Source of the DNA: Caryophanales bacterium
GTDB lineage: Bacteria > Bacillota > Bacilli > Alicyclobacillales > SLC66
Direction of reading: 5' to 3'
Length of the DNA stretch: 8,039 nucleotides
Assembly: GCA_027341705.1 (NCBI GenBank)
Contig: DAIELO010000043.1
Coordinates: 1 to 8,039 of the forward strand
Position numbers and translations under genes: made by a program. Positions 732 to 8,039 of the stretch are shown here, one piece after another. Below the pieces are notes generated by a model. The model was given only the letters and a program-made list of their open reading frames with translations. It had not been told where the DNA came from and searched no databases. Position 1 is the stretch's first letter; every line of letters starts with the position of its first letter.

Positions 732-3317
732 ATGGCATTGGTATTGACTGATAAATCGATAATAACTAAGGGATTGGTCTCTCTCTCTGCCGTTCGATCC
801 TCTGTTTCCTTACCTCATCAACGTTACTTTGCCAAACACGATCGTCGAATTTTGCGCATGACGAATGGTGTTTTTTACCTATTTTTCATTATTTTTTTGA
901 TACTTGCCCTGAACCAAGGCATCACCTTATACCATCAAACAAAGGTGAAACTGCAATCCCAAGCTTCAATGACCGCATTTCGCACAGCGCTTCAAATTCG
1001 TTCACTAGCGGATCAGCGGTATGATGATTTAGTTTTTTTGCAAAGCCTCTTATTTTCCTATGCTTCCGACCATTTACGCCCCACCTCCAAGTTACAAACC
1101 ATATTTACTGCATTTCAGCATTCCCACCCTGGCATTACCTCCGTGGATATTGAAGATCCGTCAGGGCAACACATCATTTGGTCAAGTCAGAAATTATCTT
1201 CATCACCGATTCCTTTGCCAAATTCTTTTACGCAGATACTAGGTCGTCCACAGGAACTTATTGGTGTTCCCACCTATGCCACAAGCCTACATCAGTGGGT
1301 GATCCCGATGAAAATTCGAGTAATCGATACACATCATCATGTACTTGGGTATATTAGTACACCTTTTCAAGTCTCCAATTTCTCACAAGTAAACATACCA
1401 CCCAATATGATGGTCACGCTTTGGGATGCACAACGACACACGATCATCTCCCAATGGAATCATGGGAAGTGGACTACTCCCACTTCCTCGGTAGGCTCCG
1501 CAGAATCGCCACTCCCTTCTTCTCATACGGACACATCGACAACGATCAATGATCTCCCGTGGCAACTTCATATTCAATGGACGACTAGAGCAGTGCAACA
1601 AGCCTTTTGGCAATCAGAAAGCAATCTGATTTCTCCTATTTTTTCTATTTTTATGTTAATTTTTCTCATTGATTTTATCACTCAGCTTTTACTGCGACGT
1701 CTATTGCGCCAACGTTTCTATCAGCAAGCGATTTTATTGATTCAGCAAAAAGCGTTTTCAGTTTCGTCCTCCCTCGCGCTATACCAAACGGTGGTAGAGA
1801 CATTAGCAAACATGACCGATGGCATGCTGATCTACATCCAGCAGGGAGAGACAGAAGACCCTCATGCCCAAATCCTTGCTATCCAACAAAACACACGACT
1901 CACAAACCACCCCCTCCCTGTTGCCTCACTTACTTCCCCTGCGCTTTTGCAACAGACCATAAGCCAACAGGGAGTTCCTTGGTCGCATCCGATGACGGAG
2001 CAAGCGATCTTTTTTCATGATCAGGAGGCTGGATTACAACTGGTGGTGAAAAGTGAAGAACGCTTTTATTTTTCAAAAGAAATCATAAGTTTACTGACTG
2101 ACCTGACCTATACGCTTCAAAACATTTTAAAGCGATGGGAAGCCATCCGATTGCAAGAAGTTTCCAAACAGCAATTAGCCATGGAAGCTAAAATACGTTT
2201 TAATCTGATCAACAATATCGGCATTGGCATTTTCCTATCGTCCCTTGACCGCGTTATTCTTCGTGCGAATCACAGGATTACTGAACTGTTCGGCTATGAG
2301 GAGTACGAATTAATCGGTCAAAGTTTTCGCATCATTTATAGCAGTGAGGAACGCTTCCAGCATTTTGGATCGTATTACCATTTATTGTGCGATGCCACTC
2401 AGGGAATCATCCATCAGGAATATACGTTTCAACGAAAAGATAACACGATATTTACGGGAGAAATTTATGGCACTTTACTCGATCGTGACGATCCCTCCCA
2501 AGGTTTGATCTGGACGATTCAAGATATTACAGAAAAAATAACATTACAAAGTGAACTGCAGACACATCATGAACGCATGCAAAGTGAACTGGAACATGCT
2601 GCCACCTTGCAAAAAGCATTTTTGCCTCATCATTTACCTAAAGTATCGGGAGTTGCGATGGCGTGGGAGTATATCCCTAGTAGTTTTCTTGCTGGCGATA
2701 TGATCAATGTCATTCTGTTGGATAATCAACACCTTGGCTTTTACGTTCTCGATGTGATGGGGCACGGTGTCTCTGCTGCATTAAATGCCATTGCGATTAA
2801 TTATTTTATTCGACCTTCTGAAAATGAAAATGAACGTATGCAATCATATCATCCTGGCGAGTTACTGACGTCTATGAATGAGCGATTCGGAGATTTTCTC
2901 GTCACCGAATCTTATTTTACCCTCTTTTATGCCGTGCTTGACCTTGCCACTTTACGATTAACCTATGCCAGAGGCGGACATCCCGCGCCTATTTTCCTAC
3001 ATGATAATGGTGAAATTGACTATTTGGAGGAGGGAGATATGCCACTGGGAATTATGAGAGGGGTGACGTACCAATCGTTTGATTTACAAATGCAACTAGG
3101 GGATAAGCTGATGCTTTATTCCGATGGATTAACGGACGTGTTCAATGAAAAAGGAGAACAATTTTCATCACGACGCATCGCAAAAGAGATGGTCACCCAC
3201 CACGCGCTTAGCATCCATCCTTTAACCCACCACATCCTATCAACAATCGAAACCTTTACAGGCAAGAAACGGTGGAATGATGATGTCTCCTTAATGGGCT
3301 TGGAGATCACCCTGTGA
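732..3317 (+). CDS. Membrane sensor serine phosphatase: external domain, GAF-like, PAS, PP2C (RsbU/SpoIIE class)
   Basis: An 861-codon two-pass membrane protein. Residues ~1-42 are cytoplasmic and basic. A first membrane helix spans ~46-67, an external sensor region ~68-298, and a second helix ~299-321. A GAF-like region covers ~335-465, a PAS domain ~484-602 (NNIGIGIFLSS ... GYEEYELIGQSF ... WTIQDIT), and a helical linker ~603-625. The C-terminus (~626-861) is a PP2C phosphatase of the RsbU/SpoIIE type, with LQKAFLPHHLP, LAGDMINV (D656), DVMGHGVSAAL (D674), GGHPAPIF, YSDGLTD (D798) and NDDVSLMG (D850/D851). The metal-binding aspartates are all present, so it is probably active. Family members dephosphorylate anti-sigma-factor antagonists (STAS proteins) and so free sigma factors; no STAS or anti-sigma gene is visible here, so the target is unknown. 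Start choice is unsure: AAGGG (727-731) abuts the ATG at 732 but is six bases before an in-frame TTG at 738. It is not SpoIIE itself, which has about ten membrane helices. Confidence 0.95.
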   Translation: MALVLTDKSIITKGLVSLSAVRSSVSLPHQRYFAKHDRRILRMTNGVFYLFFIIFLILALNQGITLYHQTKVKLQSQASMTAFRTALQIRSLADQRYDDLVFLQSLLFSYASDHLRPTSKLQTIFTAFQHSHPGITSVDIEDPSGQHIIWSSQKLSSSPIPLPNSFTQILGRPQELIGVPTYATSLHQWVIPMKIRVIDTHHHVLGYISTPFQVSNFSQVNIPPNMMVTLWDAQRHTIISQWNHGKWTTPTSSVGSAESPLPSSHTDTSTTINDLPWQLHIQWTTRAVQQAFWQSESNLISPIFSIFMLIFLIDFITQLLLRRLLRQRFYQQAILLIQQKAFSVSSSLALYQTVVETLANMTDGMLIYIQQGETEDPHAQILAIQQNTRLTNHPLPVASLTSPALLQQTISQQGVPWSHPMTEQAIFFHDQEAGLQLVVKSEERFYFSKEIISLLTDLTYTLQNILKRWEAIRLQEVSKQQLAMEAKIRFNLINNIGIGIFLSSLDRVILRANHRITELFGYEEYELIGQSFRIIYSSEERFQHFGSYYHLLCDATQGIIHQEYTFQRKDNTIFTGEIYGTLLDRDDPSQGLIWTIQDITEKITLQSELQTHHERMQSELEHAATLQKAFLPHHLPKVSGVAMAWEYIPSSFLAGDMINVILLDNQHLGFYVLDVMGHGVSAALNAIAINYFIRPSENENERMQSYHPGELLTSMNERFGDFLVTESYFTLFYAVLDLATLRLTYARGGHPAPIFLHDNGEIDYLEEGDMPLGIMRGVTYQSFDLQMQLGDKLMLYSDGLTDVFNEKGEQFSSRRIAKEMVTHHALSIHPLTHHILSTIETFTGKKRWNDDVSLMGLEITL

Positions 3318-3390
3318 TTGTCACGTCACAGAAAATTCGATTGATTCAATTTCATCTGGTAATCCTGCATGTTTTAGCGTATGATAAATG

Positions 3391-3418
3391 TTGACAAATA
3401 TTTATACAAAAATAAAAC
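3391..3418 (+). promoter_or_regulatory. Probable sigma-A promoter of the riboswitch-controlled transcript
   Basis: A perfect -35 TTGACA (3391-3396) is followed after 16 bases by TAAAAC (3413-3418), a 4/6 match to TATAAT. The region is AT-rich. Transcription would start near 3425, at the very beginning of the aptamer, so either the riboswitch 5' arm is short or a slightly different -10 is used. The -35 is convincing; the -10 is weak. Confidence 0.45.
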
Positions 3419-3499
3419 GATAAAGGTAAACTTGCCGAAAGGTAAGGACACAAAGCCGCAGGTCTAAAGCGACATGCTATGACAGCTGGGTTGCCGTAA
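3419..3499 (+). ncRNA. Cyclic-di-GMP-I riboswitch (GEMM-I aptamer)
   Basis: The conserved GEMM-I elements occur in order. AGGTAAAC (3424-3431) begins the core. P2 is CTTGCC-GAAA-GGTAAG (3431-3446) with its GNRA-type tetraloop. GGACACAAAGCC (3446-3457) is the conserved joining strand. The tetraloop-receptor side is GGTCTAAAGC (3461-3470), P3 is closed by AGC/GCT, and GGGTTGCCG (3488-3496) is the 3' strand. As I recall the Vc2 numbering, the base equal to G20 is still G here, which fits c-di-GMP rather than the cGAMP-binding variants with A20. The aptamer lies ~75 bases before the ATG at 3573 of a small unknown gene on the same strand. It senses the second messenger that usually controls the motile/sessile switch. 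Confidence 0.93.
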
Positions 3500-3541
3500 A
3501 AATAGTGACAAGCATGATATATATGTTACGGTGCCTTTCTT
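3488..3541 (+). promoter_or_regulatory. Candidate expression platform: hairpin competing with the riboswitch 3' strand
   Basis: CCGTAA (3494-3499) is exactly complementary to TTACGG (3526-3531), and GG (3489-3490) can add pairs with CC (3534-3535) across a small internal loop. A T-rich run, TTTCTT (3536-3541), follows. CCG at 3494-3496 also belongs to the aptamer's conserved 3' strand, so the two folds exclude each other. If the late hairpin terminates transcription, ligand binding would prevent it and turn the gene ON. The T-run is interrupted, so termination may be weak. This is inferred from pairing only. Confidence 0.45.
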
Positions 3542-3562
3542 CGTTAATAAGAGAGGATATGA

Positions 3563-3586
3563 ATGCACTCCGATGGAATACAGTAG
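3563..3586 (+). CDS. Possible seven-codon leader ORF (MHSDGIQ)
   Basis: The strongest ribosome site in the riboswitch leader, AAGAGAGGA (3549-3557), is five bases before this ATG, which is out of frame with the following gene. The ORF reads MHSDGIQ and stops with TAG at 3584-3586. One base later an in-frame ATG (3588) of the downstream protein begins. This geometry suits translational coupling. The alternative is that the ribosome site serves the ATG at 3573 at an unusually long spacing of 15 bases and the short ORF is chance. Confidence 0.3.
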   Translation: MHSDGIQ

Positions 3587-3854
3587 CATGGAATTATATA
3601 AGTTGATTACAAATTTAGCTCATCGACAATCATATACTGAGCTGGAACAACTGTTAAACACGAATAAACACAATATCACGATCACCATGCTTAACGAACT
3701 TTTTGAATTGCCTTTACATGAATCGATTGTCAGCGAACACCCTGATTTGTATAGCACCATTGTAGAAGTAGCGGATTTAAATAAAGCGCACCTAACGTTA
3801 AGGCACACGATTCAAGTGGCCTCCATTAAGATGGCTATCGAAAAATCGGAATGA
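3573..3854 (+). CDS. c-di-GMP riboswitch-controlled small protein, function unknown
   Basis: A 93-residue soluble protein that I do not recognise. It begins MEYSSMELYKLITNLAHRQ and is mostly predicted helix, with amphipathic segments at ~6-24 and ~36-50 and a helical C-terminus ending MAIEKSE. It has no Cys, no membrane segment and no catalytic motif that I can see. Size and helicity would suit a small adaptor or regulator, but that is a guess. It is the only gene downstream of the c-di-GMP-I riboswitch on this strand before the convergent gene, so its expression should follow c-di-GMP levels. The start is uncertain: GTG 3531 has no ribosome site and overlaps the switching hairpin, ATG 3573 has GAGAGGA 15 bases upstream, and ATG 3588 would be coupled to the leader ORF. 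Confidence 0.75.
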   Translation: MEYSSMELYKLITNLAHRQSYTELEQLLNTNKHNITITMLNELFELPLHESIVSEHPDLYSTIVEVADLNKAHLTLRHTIQVASIKMAIEKSE

Positions 3855-3890
3855 ATGTGTGGAGAGCATGACACCGTAGTTTACAAGATT

Positions 3891-3918
3891 CCTGCCAGAA
3901 TGTCTACATTGTGGCAGG
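3891..3918. terminator. Long hairpin at the convergent gene junction, possible two-way terminator
   Basis: CCTGCCA (3891-3897) pairs perfectly with TGGCAGG (3912-3918). Inside, AATG (3899-3902) pairs with CATT (3907-3910) around a four-base loop, giving 7 bp, one G-G mismatch and 4 bp. It covers the stop codon of the membrane protein on the minus strand (3904-3906) and lies 37 bases after the stop of the plus-strand gene. Neither side has a strong T-run, so it may act mainly as an RNA 3'-end stabiliser or a weak terminator. Confidence 0.45.
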
Positions 3919-5424
3919 CAATCGCCTCCGCACATACACGGTGGCGTATTGGTCGTGAAATGCTAGCCTCCATACAGAAGGCAACAGTTTTACTTCGTTA
4001 TCCACGAGCGAACCATTACGTACGAGAATGTACCGCATCTTCCCGTACCCCCATGCCTTGGTAAGTGGCAATTGTCCTGAATCTACCTTCATTACGTTCA
4101 TCGTCAAATTCGGTTCAGTTTTTGGAGAAATAACGCCTGCCCACACGTCTTGCTGGCTCTCCAAATAATTCTGATCACCCCATAGCGTCAGTTCATCCGA
4201 ATATTGCATCGGCTCGTAACCAATGTAGTCCAAAGTATTCGCATGTTTCACCACGTATTGCAGGGCTGTATTATCCACCACTACAGCATCTTGAAACGCA
4301 TGAACGTTCGGATGTATCCAGGGATACAGAATGAGCAATGCCGCTGTTCCTACTGTCATCAGCCAACCAGTCAAGCGACTCGTGTTTGCATACCACAGCC
4401 GATCCCATGCTGCGATGTTACGTAACCTTGTCGCCCACGATGGCAGCCAGTCTTCCGCACGAAATGCCGAAAAAAACCATAAAATCCACAATGTATAAAA
4501 TGGTAAATTGCGAACTGAATGTAAGGCGAATAATCCCAAGAAGACGAGTACCACTCGATCCACGTTCTTCATCGTTCGCCACACCAACACACCCGCACCC
4601 GCCAGAACGATCATGATAGGGACACTAGAACCAGCAAAGCCCATCGGCATGACTTCGGTGATGTAACGATCGTAGGGCACCGATTGCCACAAAAACGGGT
4701 AAAGCAAATTGTACAAATGATTCGGCATGACCGCCACAATTTCCATCATCGTCACCGGCACGACCCACAATGACCGATATGACCGTGATACCACCATATC
4801 GATCACGAACAGCGGATAGAATAAGGCAAATCCGCCGTGCATCGACGCCCACAACGGCATAACCAGCAACCAGATCCATTGACTTTTCAACACGTGGACC
4901 GCGCGATGTACTTGCGTCAACGAATCCGATTTATCCCGCATTTGACGCCACCACAGGTAGAACACGAAAAAGAGATAGCTAAACATCTGCGGGCGATCCA
5001 CCAAAAAGTTGGACATGCCTGCCATGAACACGATCAAGGCGAACAATAGTGTGATCGTGGAACCATTCTTTTTTGTAAGCCAATAGGTCAGGAACATGCC
5101 ACTCCACAAGGCAAGTTGCACCAATGCCACTAAACCCGTCCAGCCTGTGTTGGCATAGAGAACGTACAATAAACCGTCTGTCAGCCATTCCGGCCCGGTC
5201 GACTGATACGGATGATTCACTACCCAAGAACTGGTCAACCGATAGTGAAACCCTTGCGTCAGTAAGTACCATCCGTTGCGAATCGCCCAACCAGTGTCAT
5301 CGTTGATCGTATTCGCGTGGAAGGCGCTGACGACACTCACAGCGATTATGACCACCATCAAAAAAAGCAATACCGCGTAGATGGCGTAGGCTTTCCTTTT
5401 GGCTGATTTTTCTACATCAGGCAT
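3904..5424 (-). CDS. Polytopic membrane protein of the GT-C-like (glycosyltransferase 39-type) class
   Basis: A 506-residue integral membrane protein. The start at 5424 has an excellent ribosome site, AAAAGGAGA (5431-5439). After a basic N-terminus, a helix at ~13-34 leads to NDDTGWAIRNG (41-51) and GPEWLTDGLLYVLY (77-90). This matches the family layout in which an acidic pair and 'W-R-G' in the first external loop precede '(H/P)EWL'. Later family marks are VDRPQMFSYLF (142-152), LWASMHGGFAL (191-201), MPNHLYNLLYPF (233-244) and RNLPFYTLW (305-313). About nine or ten membrane helices end near 370. Residues ~371-506 form a soluble, probably external domain ending WRLAFHDQYATVYVRR. GT-C enzymes transfer sugars from lipid-linked donors on the outer face of the membrane. 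I infer such a role from the D42/D43 loop and layout, but no substrate is indicated. A small ORF lies 60 bases upstream on the same strand, probably in the same operon. Confidence 0.88.
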   Translation of the reverse strand: MPDVEKSAKRKAYAIYAVLLFLMVVIIAVSVVSAFHANTINDDTGWAIRNGWYLLTQGFHYRLTSSWVVNHPYQSTGPEWLTDGLLYVLYANTGWTGLVALVQLALWSGMFLTYWLTKKNGSTITLLFALIVFMAGMSNFLVDRPQMFSYLFFVFYLWWRQMRDKSDSLTQVHRAVHVLKSQWIWLLVMPLWASMHGGFALFYPLFVIDMVVSRSYRSLWVVPVTMMEIVAVMPNHLYNLLYPFLWQSVPYDRYITEVMPMGFAGSSVPIMIVLAGAGVLVWRTMKNVDRVVLVFLGLFALHSVRNLPFYTLWILWFFSAFRAEDWLPSWATRLRNIAAWDRLWYANTSRLTGWLMTVGTAALLILYPWIHPNVHAFQDAVVVDNTALQYVVKHANTLDYIGYEPMQYSDELTLWGDQNYLESQQDVWAGVISPKTEPNLTMNVMKVDSGQLPLTKAWGYGKMRYILVRNGSLVDNEVKLLPSVWRLAFHDQYATVYVRRRLPATM

Positions 5425-5874: not shown

Positions 5875-6504
5875 TTATTTTGTCAACACTTCATTGGTAA
5901 TCGCTTGAAGATCAATGCCGAACACGTGGCGTTCGCTTAGCATATCAGGCAAAATGATATCTAAAAAATACGTCACGCAATAAAGGTCTACATTTTGAAT
6001 CACGTTCAATGCATCTTTGTACATCTTAACAAAATCAGGTTCAATATTTCCTCTTTGGATTTCTTGGTACGCTTCGTACACCTGGTCCATTTTATCTGCG
6101 ACTTGCAAAATCTTTCCCTCTAAAGTTTCATTTTTTCCTTCTTTCAATTTCTCACGGTAAAGACTCTTAAATTCATCTGGAAGTTCTTTATCGATAAACT
6201 TCTTTGTCATTTCTTCTTCCACATCCAAAAGCAACTTGCGCAGTTCCATCGAAGCATATTTCACTGGTGTTTTAATATCGCCGATAAAAACCTCTGCATA
6301 ATCGTGGTTCAACGCTTTCTCATAAAGCGACTTCCAGTTGATGTTTGCGCCATTCATTTCTTCGACAGTCCCCAAAAATTGCGCATATTGAGCAACTTTG
6401 AAACTATGGCTGGAAATATTGTGCTCTTCGTATTTGAACTTCCCGGGAGCACGATAAATACGTTCCAATTCGTTTAAACTTTTGAAAAATGCGTGTATTC
6501 CCAT
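5875..6504 (-). CDS. HD-domain 5'-nucleotidase, YfbR-like
   Basis: A 209-residue soluble protein of the HD phosphohydrolase superfamily. The start at 6504 is chosen because GGTGGG (6512-6517) lies seven bases upstream; a GTG at 6516 would add four residues without a ribosome site. The metal ligands are in family order: H33 (ISSHSF), H67-D68 (NHDYAEV) and D137 (VADKMDQ), with E71 matching the catalytic glutamate and GDIKTPVKY matching the YfbR signature GD-TPVKY. Length and spacing fit Escherichia coli YfbR, a 5'-deoxynucleotidase that removes phosphate from dNMPs. R18 is conserved, but the next residue, Trp in YfbR as I recall, is Ala here, so substrate preference may differ. It is the second gene of the minus-strand block, separated from the chemoreceptor by a probable terminator, so it likely has its own promoter. 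Confidence 0.88.
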   Translation of the reverse strand: MGIHAFFKSLNELERIYRAPGKFKYEEHNISSHSFKVAQYAQFLGTVEEMNGANINWKSLYEKALNHDYAEVFIGDIKTPVKYASMELRKLLLDVEEEMTKKFIDKELPDEFKSLYREKLKEGKNETLEGKILQVADKMDQVYEAYQEIQRGNIEPDFVKMYKDALNVIQNVDLYCVTYFLDIILPDMLSERHVFGIDLQAITNEVLTK

Positions 6505-6549
6505 ATAAACACCCACCGTCTGGTTTTCAGTAAATGAACCTCCCCTACC

Positions 6550-7703: not shown

Positions 7704-8039
7704 AGTTTTTCGTCATAACTTTCTCGGACAAAATGTGACAAATCACCAAAACAACTTTAAAATAAAAAAAGCAACTTATCTATCTTAACTCTTAGATCCC
7801 CAATATACCCATCATCCGCCATTTGCCGTGACTCTAATGGGTGCATCTTTCATGACCCCGTCCATAATCATGCTCTCCATCATACGATCGTAGAATATAC
7901 TATTACTTATACGTTTAAAATAGCACTTACAACATCACTCGTTCACTATCCCTTCTGTTTTGTGCATCAACTGAGAGGATGAAAGGAATGGATTTCTCGC
8001 ATTGCCATGATATCCACCACAGATTCTGTTTTCTTCGGT
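7704..8039. other. Right-end stretch with no confident gene; short open frames only
   Basis: This stretch is AT-rich, with an A-run at 7761-7771 and a CAACTT direct repeat on each side of it. It has no complete gene of normal size. On the minus strand three frames are open from the right edge. One ends at TGA 7967-7969 (reading TESVVDIMAMREIHSFHPLS near its end). Another runs to a TGA near 7940 and then continues after the stop to MDGVMKDAPIRVTANGG, ending at 7812. On the plus strand, ATG 7988 with GAGAGG (7973-7978) nine bases before opens a frame to the edge. A gene end entering from the right on the minus strand, a gene start on the plus strand, or decayed coding sequence are all possible. 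Confidence 0.35.

Follow-up and report, generated by a model that had tools for sequence, protein, structure and literature searches.

The analyzed window, i.e., the whole stretch of 8039 bp, begins with the end portion of a gene for a YceI-like protein (1-372), followed by a 69-aa ORF (499-708) and by a plus-strand gene (732-3317) whose 861-aa product carries PAS and SpoIIE phosphatase domains. Downstream on the same strand lie the two elements that are the subject of this analysis: (i) a c-di-GMP-I (GEMM-I) riboswitch aptamer (3415-3498, plus strand), and (ii) a gene for a 93-residue orphan protein that is predicted to be all-helical (from an ATG at 3573 to a stop codon ending at 3854, plus strand). 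The main genes beyond them are encoded on the opposite strand, namely a convergent gene (3904-5424, minus strand) whose 506-aa product has no Pfam match above the cut-off, a gene for a YfbR-like HD protein (5875-6516), and, third in this order, a gene whose product contains an MCP signalling domain.

One more 69-aa ORF (3855-4064, plus strand) starts immediately 3' of the small gene's stop codon and shares 161 of its 210 bases with the convergent 506-aa gene. The ORF has no match in Pfam and none in 59 related genomes, the latter being an empty answer that carries little weight here, whereas a 54% relative of the 506-aa protein is encoded in the related genome G001. Because of the overlap and the lack of matches, this ORF was not counted as a gene, and we take the riboswitch-controlled unit to consist of one gene, the 93-residue ORF. 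The earlier note had likewise named this ORF, which is as described there, as the sole gene under the riboswitch.

Among the neighboring genes, the one for the YfbR-like HD protein encodes a product that shares 92% identity with a G008 protein, 88% with one of G031, and 79% with one of G042. It has no match in G001, the genome that holds the best match of the window SpoIIE protein over its length (54%). This distribution suggests horizontal transfer of the YfbR-like gene. Matches of the PAS/SpoIIE protein number 19 in G001, 9-10 in G046-G048, and 0-3 in the remaining genomes of the order, with several of those in G001 and G046-G048 covering the PAS part only; by these counts, sensors of the PAS/SpoIIE type look expanded in the G001/G046-G048 lineage.

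A relative of the small gene was found in a Bacillota MAG on contig JAJZCW010000032.1 (locus L001; the relative spans 8001-8294 and the aptamer 7856-7938), and its product is 64% identical to the window protein. Comparison of the two genes over 91 aligned codons gave pS of 0.779 and pN of 0.233 (pN/pS about 0.3, with saturated synonymous sites), and the substitutions are distributed over the three codon positions as 24/17/54. Purifying selection relative to the L001 gene thus supports the 93-residue ORF as a real protein-coding gene. Its open frame is listed from a GTG at 3531, and a Shine-Dalgarno-like AGAGAGG (3550-3556, plus strand) lies 16 nt 5' of the ATG at 3573; the equivalent spacing in L001 is 14 nt. 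Two closer ATGs, at 3559 and 3563, lie in other frames and open frames of 15 and 7 codons, respectively, that overlap the main start. The L001 gene has an in-frame ATG 12 nt upstream of the start common to both genes, and one further homolog (cluster P0003) has five additional N-terminal residues. Given the 16-nt distance and the out-of-frame ATGs, the ATG at 3573 is the probable, not the certain, start codon.

The aptamer had been described in the earlier note as a clear GEMM-I element starting at 3419. The covariance-model check upheld the element itself and moved its start to 3415, since the claimed start drops the first four aligned bases: RF01051 matches 3415-3498 (plus strand) at full length with 82 bits against a gathering threshold of 35 (E 1.7e-15, model positions 1-87 of 87), and no other Rfam match in the window attains the gathering threshold. 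The P2 helix with a GAAA tetraloop and the P3 helix are present, and no pair is broken in the Rfam alignment. As read from the sequence, P1 comprises three pairs (A3417-U3497, C3418-G3496, and G3419-C3495); when the window aptamer is folded by itself, its minimum-energy structure lacks the canonical P1, while the L001 aptamer forms four pairs. Aptamers of the c-di-GMP-I class have a G at position 20, which contacts the ligand guanine, and a C at position 92, and A at position 20 marks variants for c-AMP-GMP. In what we take to be the Vc2 numbering, G3426 and C3494 appear equivalent to positions 20 and 92, so that G3426 would fit c-di-GMP binders and not c-AMP-GMP variants.

The small protein itself was reported in the earlier note to contain no familiar motif, and it indeed has no match in Pfam or in NCBIfam up to E 5. 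Among the seven family members, the Pfam search returned only MOM1 (E 0.055) and GMT-wHTH (E 0.11), one member each, and the NCBIfam search returned GldE in one of seven (E 0.017), a weak match that was not used. PilZ, GGDEF, EAL, and HD-GYP domains had no Pfam match in the window protein or in the family members. The PHROG matches are below threshold, with E 0.063 for the window protein and, in three of the seven members, phrog_12494 at best E 0.019. Comparison of the family profile with PDB sequences yielded no match below E 0.058; the MarR/MepR sequences at E 0.058-0.79 were likewise weak and unused.

A search of about 5.8 billion proteins returned four clusters with the single sequence, seven with a 5-row profile, and the same seven with a 7-row profile, which suggests that no further clusters are to be found at the given sensitivity. 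The seven are P0001, to which the window protein belongs, P0002, P0003, P0005, P0006, P0007, and the fragment P0004; the P0005 protein is identical to that of L001. In genome contigs, the single-protein query matched 64 stretches, none of them a relative, and a query with alignment A1 matched 71 stretches, one of them a relative (L001). None of the 48 stretches matched in viral contigs is a relative of the small protein, and the single match of the plasmid tblastn search (E 8) is unrelated. A relative is present in one of the 59 genomes of G001's order. Class-wide, 14 of 398 genomes yielded matches at an E of no more than 0.1; the 13 matches outside G001 were treated as chance, the best of them (3.2e-4) having two internal stop codons. 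Judging from these searches, the small protein is a new, narrow family, so far in very few Bacillota genomes.

In agreement with the claim that the protein is helical, its AlphaFold2 model consists of six helices (pLDDT 94.7). A Foldseek comparison of this predicted structure with the PDB gave no match reaching E 1e-3 (best E 0.34), and the further structure-comparison rows are within the background reached by helical models. The closest viral fold, an uncharacterized phage protein (A0A6J5M680; E 0.019, TM 0.65/0.60), is a lead only. Assignment to a known fold family was set aside, no PDB match being found at E 1e-3.

At L001, the aptamer is directly upstream of the relative (73.4 bits with RF03167, 80.7 bits with RF01051), and the neighbors are unlike those in the window: a divergent ABC transporter gene lies upstream, and the downstream gene, for an M50-like peptidase, is convergent, both labels being assigned from translations by inspection. 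The pairing of aptamer and small protein is kept in the one other locus with readable DNA (1 of 1). The check set in advance, whether homologs sit behind c-di-GMP leaders, thus returned an aptamer (73.4 bits) for the single readable homolog (1 of 1), in a different neighborhood. The SpoIIE phosphatase and the small protein were also considered as a conserved pair, and this was set aside because the L001 relative has other neighbors. In G001's order, c-di-GMP-I aptamers were found in 58 of 59 genomes versus the single genome with the small protein, the aptamer census having used stricter filters, so that its counts may be low.

Comparison of the two leaders between aptamer and Shine-Dalgarno sequence revealed that the longest common stretches are GCCGUAA, UACGG, and CCUUUCU, the very elements proposed here for the expression platform. 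In the unconstrained fold, GCCGUAA (3493-3499) forms an alternative stem with UUACGGU (3526-3532, plus strand), and this stem competes with the short aptamer P1 at 3495-3497; its counterpart in L001 pairs GCCGUA with UACGGC. An outer extension (3489-3491 with 3533-3535) is readable in the sequence and absent from the computed folds. The computed folds further contain a hairpin of CCUUUCUU (3534-3541) with AAGAGAGG (3549-3556, plus strand) that sequesters the Shine-Dalgarno sequence; it folds both with the aptamer set aside and with the aptamer enforced. The L001 hairpin, CCUUUCU/AGAAAGG, has 7 bp and also covers the Shine-Dalgarno sequence. CCUUUCU is complementary to the Shine-Dalgarno sequence in both leaders (AGAGAGG in the window, AGAAAGG in L001), which suggests translational control, and on these predicted folds regulation at the level of translation is likely.

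The direction of control was approached by folding with and without an enforced aptamer. The unpaired fraction of the window Shine-Dalgarno sequence is 0.67 in the free fold and drops to 0.086 once the aptamer is enforced. Dinucleotide shuffling of the window spacer never produced so large a difference (0 of 300), and a single shuffle (1 of 300) was equally closed in the bound state. For two shorter window transcripts, the values were 0.80 vs 0.004 and 0.50 vs 0.11. Since the site closes when the aptamer is enforced, translation is predicted to be OFF at high c-di-GMP, a direction that we hold with moderate confidence. The L001 site has a value of 0.019 both free and enforced, with 184 of 300 shuffles at least as good and 6 of 300 as closed in the bound state; being closed with and without the aptamer, it is not predicted to switch. 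Two leaders of G001 gave a weak difference (L004, Flp/TadE leader; 0.245 vs 0.168) and no difference (L006; 0.616 vs 0.623), respectively. The whole window leader is no better folded than its shuffles (z -0.80), 42 of 200 of which did equally well, and L001 does not conserve the pairing between the aptamer 5' arm and UCGUU. The spacing between Shine-Dalgarno sequence and start codon, 16 nt in the window and 14 nt in L001, is also long for translational control. A similar layout is seen in the L004 leader, on the reverse strand, where a stem uses the aptamer 3' arm and a hairpin lies over the Shine-Dalgarno sequence AGGUGG.

Taken together, we consider it fairly probable that the riboswitch governs a single-gene unit through translational OFF control, and that its product is a soluble six-helix adaptor or inhibitor. 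With c-di-GMP bound, the aptamer would keep its own strands, CCUUUCUU would pair with AAGAGAGG, and ribosomes would be excluded. In the absence of the ligand, the aptamer 3' arm GCCGUAA would pair with UUACGGU, the 5' arm would be engaged by pairing of AACGA with UCGUU and of AAAGGU with GCCUUU, and the Shine-Dalgarno sequence would be freed, so that the small protein would be produced when c-di-GMP is low. Since it has a compact helical fold and no recognized catalytic or c-di-GMP-binding domain, it may act as an adaptor or inhibitor, binding a partner in a motility, signalling, or sporulation network.

The same alternative stem could instead belong to a transcriptional ON switch, in which the ligand-free GCCGUAA/UUACGGU stem with the outer GG/CC pairs would be an intrinsic terminator followed by UUUCUUCGUU, and c-di-GMP would hold the aptamer 3' arm in P1/P3 and allow transcription to continue. 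This mechanism draws on the presence of the stem in both leaders, on its competition with P1, and on the short U-rich stretch that comes next in the window; GEMM riboswitches are described in passages of PMC9262584 as working as ON or OFF transcriptional switches. However, the U run is interrupted in the window, and in L001 the stem is followed by just UUUCU. A terminator scan of 3200-4000 found none at this site, its only match being at 3786-3808 on the minus strand, although the scan covers loops of 3-8 and the loop in question is longer. Moreover, the common CCUUUCU is better explained by its complementarity to the Shine-Dalgarno sequence. We thus regard a terminator as unlikely here, and as less likely than Shine-Dalgarno masking.

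Less probable still, at perhaps an outside chance, is an operon with the SpoIIE/PAS gene (732-3317), in which the riboswitch would lie inside a read-through transcript and the role of the small protein would be tied to the phosphatase. The two genes are on the same strand, only 97 bp separate the phosphatase stop codon from the aptamer, and no terminator-like site was found between them. On the other hand, the next upstream gene at L001 is divergent, so that the small gene there presumably has its own promoter; in the window, a weak promoter-like site at 3255-3284 (plus strand, 9 of 12 matches) is at the chance level (4 sites found, 2.7 expected). A linkage inherited once and now without function, through a decayed riboswitch or a non-functional protein, would suit a narrow family whose two readable loci could share a single origin, but is very improbable in view of the aptamer scores (82 and 73.4 bits), the purifying selection (pN/pS about 0.3), and the differing neighbors.

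The proposal that the protein is a candidate new c-di-GMP output is reasonable: the relative at L001 has the same leader, and the typical targets of the class were confirmed (see below). Direct riboswitch targets are among the few routes to unrecognized c-di-GMP outputs that start from sequence, and this locus offers a clean entry point, with one leader, one selected small domainless protein of confident predicted fold, and an apparently single-gene unit. A tentative further proposal, to which we give somewhat less than an even chance, is that the protein founds a new family of small helical c-di-GMP outputs, a standalone adaptor or inhibitor that would be produced only at low c-di-GMP and would connect the riboswitch regulon with a partner protein of this lineage by a route other than PilZ, EAL, GGDEF, adhesin, or chemotaxis proteins. 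The reach of the finding is limited by the very few genomes that contain the family and by the orphan small proteins already recorded under this riboswitch class, and the protein is probably a minor, lineage-specific c-di-GMP target.

Compared with PPR/TPR helical-hairpin repeats, the window protein has no Pfam repeat match up to E 1, and its best Foldseek PDB match has E 0.34; the structural Z score is within the chance range of helical models. As a member of the c-di-GMP-I class (RF01051/RF03167), the window aptamer is likewise full-length, above the gathering threshold, and 5' of a same-strand gene, and shows nothing notable; its expression platform looks Shine-Dalgarno-masking, with a direction that is only predicted.

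The other targets of this class were surveyed in G001, which holds seven c-di-GMP-I aptamer matches, and in the rest of its order. One ORF per locus was chosen by a simple rule at 36 loci, selected for top-scoring aptamers and not at random, and 30 of the 36 were scanned, six from G001 and 24 others, one per genome; the omitted loci are L005 (the small protein itself), L011, L013, L019, and L033 (doubtful ORF choice), and L029 (the same kinase as at L024), and at L004 the TadE gene was taken and a nearer Flp-like ORF passed over. In contrast to the window gene, these first genes are mostly recognizable, 28 of 30 having Pfam domains (E up to 1e-5): EAL (9), FapA (3), WecG-type glycosyltransferase (3), TadE (3), histidine kinase (2), MCP (2), and one each of CheX, CheA-like, CheW, sigma factor, TPR, and transglutaminase. 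EAL, chemotaxis, FapA, TadE, or WecG-type glycosyltransferase domains account for 23 of the 28, in line with the expectation that genes under this riboswitch usually serve motility, adhesion, chemotaxis, or c-di-GMP turnover. At their C termini, the EAL proteins of L021 and L028 carry a Spo0E-like domain (E 8.2e-11 and 1.9e-6, respectively), which may connect c-di-GMP with the control of sporulation. The first genes of L006 and L036 have no Pfam domain at E up to 1e-5; the latter (1761-2231, genome G042) encodes another orphan, of 157 aa, behind a c-di-GMP-I aptamer. Orphan targets of these riboswitches are thus a minority and not unique.

A close parallel is provided by Clostridioides difficile, for which passages of PMC11477304 describe five small hypothetical proteins under c-di-GMP-I riboswitches (CD1424, CD1981.2, CD1990.3, CD2309, and CD3368.2) and riboswitch-controlled small proteins of 58 aa without conserved domains. 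There, as in the window, a c-di-GMP-I riboswitch precedes a small domainless protein, of 58 aa versus 93 aa in a comparison made by description only. This precedent, as far as those passages of PMC11477304 describe it, makes a small-protein output less surprising than the earlier note had suggested: the small protein family is new, whereas the riboswitch class and the orphan small targets under it are already known.
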